From: Sphingobacteriales bacterium
GTDB lineage: Bacteria; Bacteroidota; Bacteroidia; Chitinophagales; JADIYW01
Direction of reading: 5' to 3'
Length of the DNA stretch: 64,000 bases
NCBI GenBank assembly: GCA_947460245.1
Contig: CANHGL010000006.1
Span: 1-64,000 of the forward strand
The position numbers and the translations under genes are program-made. The notes under the pieces are model-generated. The model searched no databases. It had not been told where the DNA came from and was given only the letters and a program-made list of their open reading frames with translations. Of this stretch, positions 33,624 to 39,509 are shown piece after piece (position 1 is the stretch's first letter; every line of letters begins with the position of its first letter).

Positions 33624-35054
33624 TTACCAGAATTTTATTTTTCCGGCAGCAAACCAGCACATCCTTAAGAGCATAAAGCCATTCTGGAAACGGGATATAT
33701 TGGTGTCACCATAAGTCCGTTCTCTGTATCTAATTGGTAAATCAATAATCTTCAGATTGAGTTTATAGGCGCCAAATAATAAATCAAAGTCGCCGAATGG
33801 ATCAAAGTCGCCAAAGAATTTTCTATTTTGGATAAGCTTTAAGTAGTCCTCCCTGAACATCACCTTGGTTCCACATAAGCTGTCTTTTATGGGCTGCTCG
33901 AGTAACCAGGAGAAAACCTTGCTGAAGAATTTATTGCCTAAGGTATTTAAGAATCTCATAGCATCTTTATCCATAGGATATACCAATCGAGATCCATTGA
34001 TAAACTCTCCTTTGCCGGTAGCAATAGCATTAAAAAATTTTGGTAATTCCTCCGGAGGCATTGTAAGGTCTGCATCTAAAATCATTAGTATGTCTTGAGT
34101 GGCTATGGAATAACCCTTTCGAACAGCATCTCCTTTGCCTTTCCCTCCTTGTTGTGCAATTTTAATATCATGGGTGTGCTGATACTTTTGTTGTATCTCC
34201 TTAATCTTTTGCCAGGTATCATCTGTAGAATTTCCTTCTATAAATATAATTTCCTGATGTTTGCCAAACTTTGGTAGGCGCAGAATTGCATTTTCAATAT
34301 TGCCACTTTCATTGCGTGCTGGAATACAGATGCTCACAGAATATTTTTCAGCAACCTCTTCTTCTTTTAAATTTAGTAATGGACGCGCAAATAAAAACTG
34401 GTTAAGAGATAAGGAGCGGAAGATGGGCAGCTTGGCAATATATTTATTAACAAGCCATGAAAGTATAGGTATGTATACCGGAATCAAAAGTCGCCTGTTG
34501 GTTCTGTATGTTTCGAAGCCAGATAGGTATAAAAGATTAGAGATATCTTTTTCATCCAGCCAGTTCTGTTGCGGCGATTTCTTCTTATAACCTGTTGTCT
34601 CCCCTAAATTCAACAAAGGTTCCCAATAGTGATTGTAGTAAGAGATGATAATTCGAGTATGTTCATGGCAATTTTTTTTCACAGAATAGAAGACATCCTG
34701 AATGTTATCTAAATAGCCAATAATATTATTAAAAATAATGACATCGAATTTCTTATCTAGTGTGATATGCGCTGCATCCATCACATAGAAATTCACGTCC
34801 CTATAATTTGTTTTTGCTGCATCAATCATCTTAGGACTGAAATCAATCCCGGTTTTATCATTGCCTTTTAATTGATGAATAGTTTCTCCAGAGCCACAGC
34901 CTACTTCTAATATAGAATCTGATTCACTGATGTAGAAATTAAGATAATTTTCGATGTCTTTATTATAGTAAGAGAAACGCCTTCGATATTGCTGATAATT
35001 ATCGGCAACTGATTCGAAGTGTTTGAATATGGTTTCTTTTCGTACAGAAGACAT
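33624..35054 (-). CDS. Fusion: SAM methyltransferase + GT2 glycosyltransferase
   Basis: A 476-aa two-domain protein. Residues about 1-230 are a class I methyltransferase (motif I ILEVGCGSGE near 48-57; VIIFNNIIGYLDNIQDVFYSV motif region). Residues about 238-476 are a GT-A family 2 glycosyltransferase of the DPM1/polyprenyl-phosphate type (SVSICIPARNESGNIENAI, DxD as ILDADLTMPPEEL near 325-335, YRERTYGDTNISRF). No stop or frameshift separates the halves. It is the last gene of the minus-strand glycan operon, 7 bp after another methyltransferase. It likely adds and methylates a sugar on a lipid carrier or glycan (inference). Confidence 0.9.
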   Translation of the reverse strand: MSSVRKETIFKHFESVADNYQQYRRRFSYYNKDIENYLNFYISESDSILEVGCGSGETIHQLKGNDKTGIDFSPKMIDAAKTNYRDVNFYVMDAAHITLDKKFDVIIFNNIIGYLDNIQDVFYSVKKNCHEHTRIIISYYNHYWEPLLNLGETTGYKKKSPQQNWLDEKDISNLLYLSGFETYRTNRRLLIPVYIPILSWLVNKYIAKLPIFRSLSLNQFLFARPLLNLKEEEVAEKYSVSICIPARNESGNIENAILRLPKFGKHQEIIFIEGNSTDDTWQKIKEIQQKYQHTHDIKIAQQGGKGKGDAVRKGYSIATQDILMILDADLTMPPEELPKFFNAIATGKGEFINGSRLVYPMDKDAMRFLNTLGNKFFSKVFSWLLEQPIKDSLCGTKVMFREDYLKLIQNRKFFGDFDPFGDFDLLFGAYKLNLKIIDLPIRYRERTYGDTNISRFQNGFMLLRMCWFAAGKIKFW

Positions 35055-35061
35055 AGTAGAT

Positions 35062-35811
35062 TTATTTTTTTCTTACATTGATAGTTTGAAAAAGTGCTGT
35101 CTTTGAAGAAAGAGAAGAAAACATTTTTTCTATTAAAGAGATAAAGCCAAATAACTTATATGGGACTAGATTTGGTTTTGATAGTCCTCCGGATAACAGA
35201 TATTTGAATGGTGTATGATGCTCAAACGAAATTAGCTCCAGTTCTGGAAACAGCTTTTGGAATTTTGAATAATCTCGCTGGAATACTATCCATGGTATAG
35301 CACCATTAGCATCGCTTAACGGACCTTTGCTGTTAAACTTCCAATCTCTAACATTTTCATCAAAAGGTTCATGATGGAAGTTTTTATAAATAAATTTTGA
35401 AAACCAGGTTGTGGCAGGCTCTATCATATAAATTACACCACCTTTCTTTAACGTGCGTTGTGCCTCGTGGAAGAAGGCTTCAGTATCTGGTATGTGATGC
35501 AATACATTCAGCATAAAGATGGCTTTTAGTGTATCATTTTCAAATGGCATCTCCTGTGCAGAAAATTGCATATCACATACAGAGAGTGGCATTATGTCGG
35601 ACGTAATTACCTCTGGATAAATATCTTTTAGAAACCCTCCGCCAGATCCAATCTCCACTACATCTCCGGATAGCTGCAGCGATTCGCTATAGCTCTTAAA
35701 CTGCAAATACCAATCCACATAAATACGCTTAAGGAATGGCTTTGACAGAATTATATTTCTGTGCTCCAGACTGGTTTCTGGTAAATCTAGATAAGATAGC
35801 GGCTCGTTCAT
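35062..35811 (-). CDS. Class I SAM-dependent methyltransferase
   Basis: A 249-aa Methyltransf_11-type enzyme: motif I VVEIGSGGGFLKDI, then ITSDIMPL, then FMLNVLHHIPDTEAFFHEAQRTLKKGGVIYMIEPA. The substrate is unknown; the C-terminal third (hydrophobic, SGGLSKPNLVPYKLFGFISLIEKMFSSLS) could associate with the membrane. It lies 69 bp after the membrane glycosyltransferase gene and 7 bp before the methyltransferase-GT fusion, suggesting a role in tailoring a surface glycan or lipid-linked sugar. Confidence 0.88.
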   Translation of the reverse strand: MNEPLSYLDLPETSLEHRNIILSKPFLKRIYVDWYLQFKSYSESLQLSGDVVEIGSGGGFLKDIYPEVITSDIMPLSVCDMQFSAQEMPFENDTLKAIFMLNVLHHIPDTEAFFHEAQRTLKKGGVIYMIEPATTWFSKFIYKNFHHEPFDENVRDWKFNSKGPLSDANGAIPWIVFQRDYSKFQKLFPELELISFEHHTPFKYLLSGGLSKPNLVPYKLFGFISLIEKMFSSLSSKTALFQTINVRKK

Positions 35812-35880
35812 GAAATTGTTGCAGTAAAAATACGAAACATATGCTTAGCTTCTATGTGCTTATTCCAGCATATCACCTGA

Positions 35881-37635
35881 TTACTTAGGTTTAGTAGCTC
35901 TAACAGAATCTATATAAGCATAATTAATTTTATACAGTAAGGACTTTTCTAGTTCTCCCTCCCGATGAATGAAAGCAAATGCACGGTCTCCATATTGCCG
36001 CGCAATATAACCTGCATATCGGTGCATAGTGCCAATGAATTGGTTCTCCAAATATCTGCTAGGGTCTAGTCGTAATTCGGGTAACATGATATAGTTTACC
36101 TTATTAGCCCTCAGTGGCATCAGCAGCGAGTCTGCATTCTCCGTAGGGGTACTATAGATAGGATAGAATTCTTTCCCATTGGAGAATATGAAAGACATCG
36201 GCGCTTTACGAACTGCAATAGTTTCATTAGAAAGATTTTCGGCACACCACTGCGTCATCTTTATATAATTTTGCCAATCAGGTGTGTAACCATATGTTGG
36301 ATCTCCTGTAATGTTCTCTATAAATACCGGTAATCGGTTCTTGGCTTCTCGTAGCGTTACAGAAATACTGGTAAAAAAAAGAAAAAAGAATAAAAATGGA
36401 TAGGCTACTTGTAGAAAGGTAAACTGATTTCCATAATGGAAGAAGATATAAAATACCGAGAACAAGATAAACGGAAGAAAAATCATGATGAGACGTGTTT
36501 GTCCCCAAGAAGTATGCAGTGTGATGAAGGTAGTTCCCAATAAAACACAAAAGAATAAGGTAGTAAACAACAGGTAATACTGTTTCTTCCTGTGCATCAG
36601 TACTATCGACCATATAATGAGTCCAATAGAGAACAAGGTTAGTGAGAGATTATTGGGGGTCATCTCTTCCCGCATGCCTAAAACATAATATAATCTGGAA
36701 GAAATATAAATCTGACAATTATCCCAGAAGCGAATTACAAAACCCCATAAGGTCTCGTTACCAAGTTGTGGCTGATAGGCATCCTTTTGCAACATCAACT
36801 TCCCCTGAGATGCAAATTGAGAGCCATCAATCTTCCATATAAATTTTAGTGCAAGCTTATAAACGATATAGAAAAAGCCAAAGCTTAGAGAGGATGTTGT
36901 CGCAGCTAAGTATTTTTTTCTATAAATGAGGAAGATTACTACCACACCAATAGCAGCTAACGCAACATTTCGTGTAATCATCATCAGGAAAACAAGAAAT
37001 CCGAGTAGAATCGTAGCACCTACATTCTGTTTAAATGTTTTTTCTATATCTTCTAATTGGTCGAGGATAGGGAAAATGAACATAAAACAAATACCGAATA
37101 CCATAAGAGAAAAGGTCTCTGTATAGGTAAGACTAGCATACATCAGGTAAGGGAAATTAATACTAGTAAGCAATAAAGAGGGAACCAATAAGATATAGGG
37201 AATTCTTTTTTCAAATGCCTTGAAGATAAAAATAATAGCCAGACAGAAACAGATGACGGAAAATACCTTTAGTAAGAATAATCGAACGCCCACTATCTTA
37301 ATTAATAATCCGAGCACCATAGGATAAAGCGGTGCATTTGCAAGATAGAAGTAACTGAAGAAATGCTTGGCATAACTAGCCCCGGACTCGATGTATAAGG
37401 CATCATCATTTGCTGTTGAAATCTTATTGTCAAAACAAGCAAATGATAGTGCTCCGGTCAGCAGTACGAGAAAGGTTAGGTAGCCATTCCTTTTCAAGGC
37501 AAAATGGTCTTCCAGAAATTCATAGAGACTCTTGCTGGAAGTATGATTACTGTTTGCAGCTTTTCTGACATTTTGCGCTGAAACAGTTTCTTTTATTAAA
37601 GATGGGCTACCTTTTTTAGTAGATTTCTTATTCAT
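35881..37635 (-). CDS. Polytopic membrane glycosyltransferase (GT39/ArnT-like, GT-C fold)
   Basis: About 584 aa from the ATG at 37635; an ATG six codons upstream (37653) is in the track. A basic N-terminus is followed by TM1, a short loop with an acidic pair (STANDDALYIESGASYAKHF) typical of GT-C first-loop catalytic sites, about 10-11 further TM segments, and a ~180-aa periplasmic C-terminal domain. GT-C enzymes use polyprenyl-phosphate sugars outside the membrane. The 37635 start overlaps the FkbM stop as ATGAATAA, a coupling arrangement. Acceptor unknown. Confidence 0.82.
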   Translation of the reverse strand: MNKKSTKKGSPSLIKETVSAQNVRKAANSNHTSSKSLYEFLEDHFALKRNGYLTFLVLLTGALSFACFDNKISTANDDALYIESGASYAKHFFSYFYLANAPLYPMVLGLLIKIVGVRLFLLKVFSVICFCLAIIFIFKAFEKRIPYILLVPSLLLTSINFPYLMYASLTYTETFSLMVFGICFMFIFPILDQLEDIEKTFKQNVGATILLGFLVFLMMITRNVALAAIGVVVIFLIYRKKYLAATTSSLSFGFFYIVYKLALKFIWKIDGSQFASQGKLMLQKDAYQPQLGNETLWGFVIRFWDNCQIYISSRLYYVLGMREEMTPNNLSLTLFSIGLIIWSIVLMHRKKQYYLLFTTLFFCVLLGTTFITLHTSWGQTRLIMIFLPFILFSVFYIFFHYGNQFTFLQVAYPFLFFFLFFTSISVTLREAKNRLPVFIENITGDPTYGYTPDWQNYIKMTQWCAENLSNETIAVRKAPMSFIFSNGKEFYPIYSTPTENADSLLMPLRANKVNYIMLPELRLDPSRYLENQFIGTMHRYAGYIARQYGDRAFAFIHREGELEKSLLYKINYAYIDSVRATKPK

Positions 37636-38383
37636 GGGTATGATTTTTTTCAATAAATAGATCTACAAAAGTAAATTCATCTTTGACCTTTGTGTAGCGA
37701 TCAATATCATTGATAGTGAATATAGTAGCTTGTCCGTTTTCAGTTTTAAATACAGAAAAATTATTTTGCCAAAGCAGATTAAAGAATGATGTATAGTCTA
37801 CTTTTGCATTTTGCATACCTAGTGGATAGAACTCTGTGATAATTTTAAGATTTGGGTTTTTATCAAAGATGGCCTGCATGCCCTTAAAAGCAAAATATTC
37901 AAAACCTTGAATGTCTATTTTAATAAAATCTACTTTTTGGTTGGGTATAATATCATCTATTGCAATCCCATCGATAGCTGTTTTGGAAGTGTAATGTTCA
38001 GTGGGATATGTCTTGTGATCTACATTAAGTAGATCTGAATGATAAAGTGTGATTGTTCCGGTATGTTCGCTTGCTGCTTTATTATGGAATACTACATTGG
38101 TTAAATGAGCAGCATTAGACAGTAGATGTTTGTAATTGGTTTTGTCGGGTTCAAAAGCATATACCCTTCCTGTGTTTCCTACTAAATCGGATAATATTTT
38201 TGTATAGAAGCCAATATTTGCTCCGATATCTAATACAATATCTCCTTTTTTAATATGCTTTTCCATCAAGGCAATATCTATCTTATCTTGTCTGCGTTTA
38301 AAAAACGGATAGATGATATTATAGATAGGAAACGCATTTTTATACAAGAAATCCCCCAATTTTATAGAAAATGAAGATGGCAT
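37628..38383 (-). CDS. FkbM family methyltransferase
   Basis: A 251-aa protein with the FkbM pattern: IKKGDIVLDIGANIGFYTKILSDLVGNTGRVYAFEPDKTNYKHLLSNA (SAM motif I and the EPD/E motif), VVFHNKAASEHTGTITLYHS and VDFIKIDIQGFEYFAFKGM. FkbM enzymes O-methylate diverse substrates, often sugars. It is 39 bp after the oxygenase and overlaps the next gene's start, so it belongs to this operon. Confidence 0.92.
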   Translation of the reverse strand: MPSSFSIKLGDFLYKNAFPIYNIIYPFFKRRQDKIDIALMEKHIKKGDIVLDIGANIGFYTKILSDLVGNTGRVYAFEPDKTNYKHLLSNAAHLTNVVFHNKAASEHTGTITLYHSDLLNVDHKTYPTEHYTSKTAIDGIAIDDIIPNQKVDFIKIDIQGFEYFAFKGMQAIFDKNPNLKIITEFYPLGMQNAKVDYTSFFNLLWQNNFSVFKTENGQATIFTINDIDRYTKVKDEFTFVDLFIEKNHTHE

Positions 38384-38422
38384 AGTTTTGTTTTTATGGC
38401 ATAGCGGATAAAAAAGAAGACC

Positions 38423-39373
38423 TTATTTCTTTAGTCCAATCTGCCTTAAGCGTTCATCCAGATATTCACCTGCCGTAATCGGTTCGTAAGCAATAGGATG
38501 TTCAGCAGTTATACAACTTTCCAGACAGTCTAGTTTAACCTCACTTCGAGGATGTAAGAAGAAAGGAATAGAATAGCGGTGCGTGTGCCATCTTTCTTTC
38601 GGTGGATTTATAACTCGATGTGTAGTTGATTTTAGTTTATTATTACACAAGCGCTGCAACATATCTCCTACGTTTACCATTATTTGATGCGGTTCTGCTT
38701 TGGCATCGTGCCAGTTTCCTTCCACATCCTGAACTTGTAAGCCGTCTGCACTAGCTCCTACCAGTAAGGTAATTAAGTTGATATCCTCATGTGCCTCTGC
38801 GCGGATGGCTGACTTTGGTTCTTGTGAGATAGGAGGATAATGAATAGCGCGCAATATGCTATTTCCATTATGGATTTTAGAATCAAAATAGTTGATTTCA
38901 AGTCCAAGATACTCTGCAACGGCACGCAAGAGATGCCTTCCGGACGTTTCAAAACTTTTATATAATTGTCTGCCTGTTTCATTGAATTCCGTAAGTTCTG
39001 CAACTTCTATATTGTCTGGGTAGTCGTCTGCCGGCATTATTTCTCCGTCTTCAATATACTGGCCTACCTGCCAGAATTCCTTAAGGTCTGCAACCTCGCT
39101 TTGTTTCGCCTTCTCTCTTCCAAAGGAAGTATATCCCCGCTGTCCGGCATATTCTACTTTTTCGTATCCTAGTTTTGCTTCCAGCGGTAGGGCATAGAAC
39201 TGCTCTACAAGGCTATAATATTTATTAATAACATCTTGAGAAATGCCGTGATTATCGATGGCAGCAAATCCAATCTCTGAATAGGCTTTACCAAATCCCT
39301 GAATAAATTTTTGCCTTCTTGCCTCATCATCTGATAAGTAATCAGCCAGGTCAAGTACAGGAATATAACTCAT
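38423..39373 (-). CDS. Isopenicillin N synthase-like 2OG/Fe(II) oxygenase
   Basis: A 316-aa non-haem iron oxygenase. An N-terminal DIOX_N part (IPVLDLADYL...GFAAIDNHGISQDVINKYYSLVEQFYALP) precedes the double-stranded beta-helix core with iron ligands HxD (AHEDINLITLLV) and distal His (STTHRVINPP), plus RYSIPFFLHP carrying the Arg-x-Ser co-substrate motif. The substrate is unknown and beta-lactam synthesis is not implied. A possible -7 box TATCTTTA (39390-39397, minus strand) lies 16 bp before the ATG. It is the first gene of the minus-strand operon. Confidence 0.9.
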   Translation of the reverse strand: MSYIPVLDLADYLSDDEARRQKFIQGFGKAYSEIGFAAIDNHGISQDVINKYYSLVEQFYALPLEAKLGYEKVEYAGQRGYTSFGREKAKQSEVADLKEFWQVGQYIEDGEIMPADDYPDNIEVAELTEFNETGRQLYKSFETSGRHLLRAVAEYLGLEINYFDSKIHNGNSILRAIHYPPISQEPKSAIRAEAHEDINLITLLVGASADGLQVQDVEGNWHDAKAEPHQIMVNVGDMLQRLCNNKLKSTTHRVINPPKERWHTHRYSIPFFLHPRSEVKLDCLESCITAEHPIAYEPITAGEYLDERLRQIGLKK

Positions 39374-39475
39374 ATAGGTAATTTTACAGTAAAGATAAGG
39401 ATTTGTCTAAACTATGTTATCTAAAGCGATGCACATTTATTGAAAACCTTAAACTTATAAAAATATAGAAAAATG

Positions 39476-39483
39476 TATTTTTG
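39476..39483 (+). promoter_or_regulatory. -7 promoter box for asnS
   Basis: TATTTTTG matches TAnnTTTG exactly, 22 bp before the asnS ATG. Confidence 0.5.
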
Positions 39484-39485
39484 AG

Positions 39486-39509
39486 ATGGAATATCAGACA
39501 CATATATGA
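39486..39509 (+). other. Seven-codon mini-ORF overlapping the asnS start
   Basis: ATG-GAA-TAT-CAG-ACA-CAT-ATA-TGA begins two bases after the -7 box and its stop overlaps the asnS start as ATGA. It contains no Asn codon, so it is not a classic asparagine attenuator. It may be fortuitous. Confidence 0.25.

Follow-up and report, generated by a model that had tools for sequence, protein, structure and literature searches.

A putative extracytoplasmic glycosylation operon with a methyltransferase-glycosyltransferase fusion in a Sphingobacteriales genome

We analyzed a group of five co-directed genes located in a 64,000-nt stretch of DNA (hereafter, the window), which belongs to contig 6 (CANHGL010000006.1) of a 2.2 Mb Sphingobacteriales genome from a sludge-type member of the Chitinophagales; the relatives with names are metagenome-derived genomes of Chitinophagales and Bacteroidota. 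The group probably encodes a module for glycosylation outside the cytoplasm. The five open reading frames (ORFs) lie on the minus strand at 33624-39373, flanked by a pseudouridine synthase gene and asnS. They are transcribed in the order Fe(II)/2-oxoglutarate (2OG) oxygenase, FkbM-family methyltransferase, GT-C glycosyltransferase, Methyltransf_11/23 methyltransferase and a fusion of a methyltransferase with a family 2 glycosyltransferase (GT2) (Table 1). The oxygenase and FkbM genes are separated by 39 nt, the FkbM and GT-C genes overlap by 8 nt (...CATGAATAA), and the gaps before and after the Methyltransf_11/23 gene are 69 and 7 nt. Thus, the five co-directed genes with short gaps or overlaps described in an earlier note on this DNA were all confirmed, as were its domain assignments (by Pfam and TIGR models and, in the case of GT-C, by a predicted structure).

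Table 1. Genes and sequence features of the glycosylation cluster (positions in the window)
Feature	Position	Strand	Basis	Remarks
Bifunctional class I S-adenosylmethionine (SAM) methyltransferase/GT2 fusion	33624..35054	-	Pfam Methyltransf_31 + Glycos_transf_2	476 aa
Methyltransf_11/23 class I SAM methyltransferase	35062..35811	-	PF13489 2.9e-10, PF08241 9e-10	249 aa; variable in the genus
GT-C glycosyltransferase	35881..37635	-	predicted fold	584 aa; start ATG at 37635, 8-nt overlap with FkbM stop
ATGAATAA overlap, FkbM stop and GT-C start	37628..37635	-	sequence	
FkbM-family methyltransferase	37628..38383	-	PF05050, TIGR01444	251 aa
IPNS-like Fe(II)/2OG oxygenase	38423..39373	-	Pfam DIOX_N + 2OG-FeII_Oxy	316 aa; operon leader in the window
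Divergent intergenic stretch, oxygenase/asnS	39374..39505	.	sequence	132 nt; presumed operon promoter region

The order oxygenase, FkbM, GT-C, variable slot, fusion was found in all eight compared genomes of the genus (G000 to G007); in G001, G002, G003 and G007 it was followed over a contig break or up to the contig end. Because this order is kept even though the GT-C proteins are only ~51-73% identical to that of the window, the grouping is more than chance. Together with the short co-directional gaps, its conservation in the genus supports the proposal of the earlier note that the five genes form a single operon. A scan for Bacteroidota -7 promoters revealed only degenerate AT-rich motifs and no consensus promoter upstream of the oxygenase, and no -7-like motif in the 39-nt gap between the oxygenase and FkbM genes.

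The fusion protein matches Methyltransf_31, Methyltransf_11 and Methyltransf_25 as well as Glycos_transf_2 (9e-24). The nearest solved relatives of its GT2 half by sequence are dolichyl-phosphate mannose synthase (DPMS) of Pyrococcus (5mlz, 8.5e-16) and ArnC (found by phmmer), and the same two enzymes were revealed by fold in Foldseek. In 18 homologues, the DAD motif (327-329) and R356 are invariant, and R356 aligns with R117 of the Pyrococcus enzyme in an alignment to the solved chain (chain offset 22). This arginine takes part in the binding of dolichyl phosphate (PMC5526996). By homology, the GT2 half thus qualifies as a putative polyprenyl-phosphate sugar synthase. Weaker matches include GpgS, exopolysaccharide glycosyltransferases and AglJ, the enzyme that puts the first sugar onto dolichol phosphate; the score against the AglJ model (104 bits) is under the cut-off of that model.

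The same architecture is already annotated in RefSeq as 'bifunctional class I SAM-dependent methyltransferase/glycosyltransferase family 2 protein', for instance in Azospirillum (WP_137143692.1), and the Azospirillum protein resembles the window fusion in both domains over 99% of its length (~46% identity). Besides Azospirillum plasmids, genomes that carry the labels Chloroflexota and Verrucomicrobiota encode the fusion as well. In the literature we found nothing on point for methyltransferase-GT2 fusions or for methylated glycans of Chitinophagales. Two side observations concern variants of this gene. In G015 and G060 (loci L154, 9550-10977, and L155, 8324-9751), the fused methyltransferase has a degenerate SAM motif I (LHLRCSTG), and the methyltransferase half may be inactive in this lineage. 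On a plasmid of Azospirillum sp. B510 (L254, 10850-13437), an LPG_synthase_TM gene overlaps the start of the fusion by 4 nt, an arrangement that we take to resemble a split AglD-type synthase; in G275 and G196, too, members of the LPG_synthase_TM family are encoded near the fusion.

The GT-C protein has 10 hydrophobic segments. A Pfam search with the window protein gave no match, PMT_2 was matched weakly by four of 13 members of the family, and a PDB sequence search with the family profile gave no match either. The family has no Pfam or NCBIfam model of its own. Its assignment comes from an AlphaFold2 model (pLDDT 83.9), for which Foldseek revealed oligosaccharyltransferase (OST, best E-value 1.6e-7), AglB, ALG12, Pmt4, ArnT and AftB, with TM-scores reaching only ~0.5. 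All 13 members share residues D77, D78 and Y81, located where the first loop begins; GT-C enzymes carry catalytic acidic residues in this loop. It should be mentioned that genes directly beside the GT-C cluster encode LamG proteins with a sorting tail of the type IX secretion system in two genomes and a protein weakly matching PorV in one (L151, 11858-12829; L217, 2734-4539; L176, 5695-6819). Such exported proteins could be acceptors.

Since the best structural matches of GT-C are OSTs of the STT3/AglB type and the weaker GT2 matches include AglJ, GpgS and exopolysaccharide enzymes, we considered that the GT2 half extends a lipid-linked oligosaccharide or polysaccharide directly, while GT-C acts as a ligase or OST moving the whole oligosaccharide. 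However, the operon contains no other glycosyltransferases, no phosphoglycosyl transferase and no Wzx/Wzy, and ArnT and ALG12, whose donors are single lipid-phosphate-linked sugars, give TM-scores about equal to those of OST; values of ~0.5 do not discriminate between the two. We regard this possibility as rather unlikely.

As for methylation, the FkbM protein scores well above the cut-offs of both Methyltransf_21 (PF05050, 3.5e-18, 66.7 versus 22.7 bits) and TIGR01444 (6e-27, 94.8 versus 37.7 bits), and by eye all three methyltransferase domains of the operon retain their SAM motifs. A 'heavily O-methylated' product, which the earlier note had deduced from the three domains, is plausible. However, the same three domains are not kept across the eight genus genomes. 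The slot between GT-C and the fusion carries a Methyltransf_11 gene in G000, G001 and G007 (3/8), which makes the five-gene set complete in three genomes, whereas a second FkbM gene takes its place in G002, G003 and G006 and the slot is empty in G004 and G005.

Taken together, these data suggest that the operon is probably an extracytoplasmic glycosylation module, in which a lipid-linked sugar is made, methylated and passed by GT-C to a surface acceptor, the oxygenase being independent of it. In the cytoplasm, the GT2 half would use a nucleotide sugar to charge polyprenyl phosphate with a sugar, as its homology and conserved residues suggest. The fused methyltransferase, FkbM and Methyltransf_11/23 would add O-methyl groups to the sugar or to the product as it grows. 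The lipid-linked sugar would then be turned over by an unlinked flippase, for which two GtrA-family genes on other contigs of the window genome (C1 and C2) are candidates, and GT-C, judging from its predicted fold, would move the sugar from the lipid to lipopolysaccharide, a polysaccharide or an exported protein. A more specific version of this scheme, in which the fused enzyme is responsible both for charging the carrier lipid and for methylating the lipid-bound sugar, which GT-C would thus receive in methylated form for its transfer outside the cell, is put forward only tentatively. It is likewise no more than a possible reading that such pre-methylation constitutes a methyl-sugar variant of the lipid-phosphate-sugar/GT-C pathway with an uncharacterised GT-C family.

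Several points weigh against the proposed module. None of the five operon genes encodes a flippase, and no GtrA-family gene was found in G001. The fusion protein contains no segment above 1.5 on the Kyte-Doolittle scale and, by hydropathy, lacks the C-terminal transmembrane helices of the GtrB type. Finally, two of its aspects considered below, i.e. the independence of the oxygenase and the transfer of the GT-C and fusion genes into another genus, face the stable upstream position of the oxygenase in the window genus and the modest strength of the phylogenetic evidence, respectively.

To characterize the distribution of the cluster, we compared 23 fusion loci outside the genus, regarding genes within six positions of the fusion as neighbours. 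A GT-C gene of the window family was found in nine of them, Methyltransf_11 in 12 and FkbM in eight; the neighbours at other loci encode PMT and TPR proteins, DUF2142 or LPG_synthase_TM proteins, NDP-sugar epimerases and GDP-mannose dehydratase. The tailoring of a glycan or lipid, suggested in the earlier note, is thus supported by the sugar-nucleotide epimerases beside the fusion elsewhere, in addition to the DPMS/ArnC-like GT2 half and the GT-C fold.

Some of these data would also fit a loose, recombining surface-glycan islet without a single conserved pathway, in which adjacency reflects hot-spot turnover: methyltransferases are swapped between genomes, the distribution is patchy, with the fusion being a rare gene (8 of 396 genomes drawn from the phylum), and in G010, which belongs to a sister genus, an oxygenase-Methyltransf_11-fusion group is separated by ~33 kb from FkbM and GT-C. 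This interpretation is nevertheless very improbable, as the GT-C and fusion genes are adjacent or within one gene of each other in nine genomes of the family as well as in several more remote genomes, and the genes of the cluster are under purifying selection. Rough dN/dS values for the pair G004-G005 (dS 1.5-2.1) were ~0.016 for GT2, 0.036 for the oxygenase, 0.045 for the fused methyltransferase, 0.10 for GT-C and 0.13 for FkbM. Since the donor side is constrained while GT-C and the accessory methyltransferases change more quickly and are exchanged between genomes, the product probably differs from strain to strain; a constrained donor step combined with a faster-evolving transfer and decoration side would fit a surface glycan varying between strains.

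The oxygenase differs from the rest of the cluster in its distribution. It matches DIOX_N and 2OG-FeII_Oxy (5e-24 and 2e-19), its closest solved chain is 3oox (3.6e-71), and the HxD...H...RxS motif is intact (H195/D197, H252, R266-Y-S268). We found nothing useful on this family in the literature. The earlier note regarded it as the leader of the operon; as a true pathway enzyme, it would hydroxylate or oxidise the sugar or the lipid, either ahead of methylation or following it. Besides the intact active site, such a role is favored by the gene order: the oxygenase lies directly upstream and co-directional, with gaps below ~90 nt, in all eight genus genomes and in G010, and the linkage is held in G002, G004, G005 and G010, where the other flank is rearranged and asnS is no longer adjacent. 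This stable position hints at some co-expression benefit. On the other hand, the oxygenase is an order-wide gene, carried by 49 of 61 relatives (GT-C by 12 of 61), mostly in unrelated contexts. It is present in more than 30 sampled genomes that lack the fusion. Outside the family it remains ~57-64% identical and sits in unrelated places, while G010 provides the only one of the 23 fusion loci outside the genus with an adjoining oxygenase. The neighbourhood comparison recommended in the earlier note thus revealed the grouping throughout the genus, whereas outside the genus it largely revealed the unrelated oxygenase that the note had named as evidence against its proposal.

Genome G012 is also informative in this respect. 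A genus-type GT-C and fusion lie there beside asnS (L149, 9021-12228), the two sampled sister species of this genome being without the pair, and the oxygenase is located away from them. The G012 GT-C nests within the window genus with 97/97 support, and the alternative of a genus clade that excludes G012 has an AU p of 0.025, this evidence being modest in view of the p value and the long branches in the tree. In contrast, the G012 oxygenase belongs to the own genus of G012, and forcing it into the window genus was rejected (AU p 4e-93). It therefore appears that GT-C and the fusion moved into the genus of G012 without the oxygenase. Because of this tree conflict and the different distributions of the two genes, we conclude that the oxygenase is probably an older independent gene, which became the operon leader in the window genus and one sister genus; its role as a dedicated pathway enzyme seems doubtful. 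A fixed insertion site marked by asnS was also considered and rejected, as asnS is not a constant neighbour. It should be noted that in G001 the oxygenase gene is unusually divergent for the genus (74%) and is split over two contig ends (the ends of L137 and L136), which disagree at several sites in their overlap; mixed strains or a replacement are candidate readings.

In total, our analysis ties a fusion annotated in Bacteroidota, Chloroflexota, Verrucomicrobiota and Azospirillum, for which we found no characterisation, to a partner of the GT-C type and to a reaction that can be tested, and draws attention to a GT-C family lacking its own model. It also removes an over-reading, as the oxygenase is probably not pathway-specific. 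If the proposed module is real, methylated surface sugars become predictable in sludge Chitinophagales and the reaction can be assayed in vitro. In agreement with the earlier note, we found no characterised pathway that combines exactly these genes; yet the layout of a polyprenyl-phosphate sugar synthase with a GT-C enzyme is well known, and the kind of pathway is not new.

Judging from its genes, the cluster most likely operates in the manner of GtrB/Gtr, ArnC/ArnT or AglD/AglS (AglS being a GT-C enzyme), except that methyl groups are added. In the GtrA/GtrB/Gtr serotype conversion systems and the pentofuranose GT136 systems, a polyprenyl-phosphate sugar synthase and the adjacent GT-C-fold transferase are likewise encoded in one operon (PMC11127046). 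The window cluster shares with them a putative synthase of this kind and a predicted GT-C-fold transferase (from the AlphaFold2 model and Foldseek), but a methyltransferase is fused to its GT2, the GtrB helices are missing, and FkbM and Methyltransf_11 are added. Because a linked flippase was looked for and not found in the cluster, we do not class it as a full three-component system. In the lipid A aminoarabinose pathway, a lipid-phosphate-sugar synthase, ArnC, is combined with the GT-C enzyme ArnT (for ArnT, PMC5526996). The GT2 half is ArnC-like (Foldseek, phmmer) and GT-C is ArnT-like (Foldseek), whereas the five window genes include methyltransferases and no homologues of ArnA, ArnB, ArnD, ArnE or ArnF. 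In Haloferax, a lipid-phosphate-mannose synthase, a lipid-phosphate-sugar transferase and a SAM methyltransferase also serve one surface glycan (AglD/AglR/AglS with AglP; PMC3871713). Unlike that system, the one described here is bacterial and its methyltransferase is fused to GT2, LPG_synthase_TM being a separate neighbour of the fusion in Azospirillum sp. B510, G275 and G196. The Azospirillum fusion loci differ from the window in their neighbours, which are galE, many methyltransferases together with a nonulosonate-type locus, or LPG_synthase_TM, with no oxygenase adjoining.

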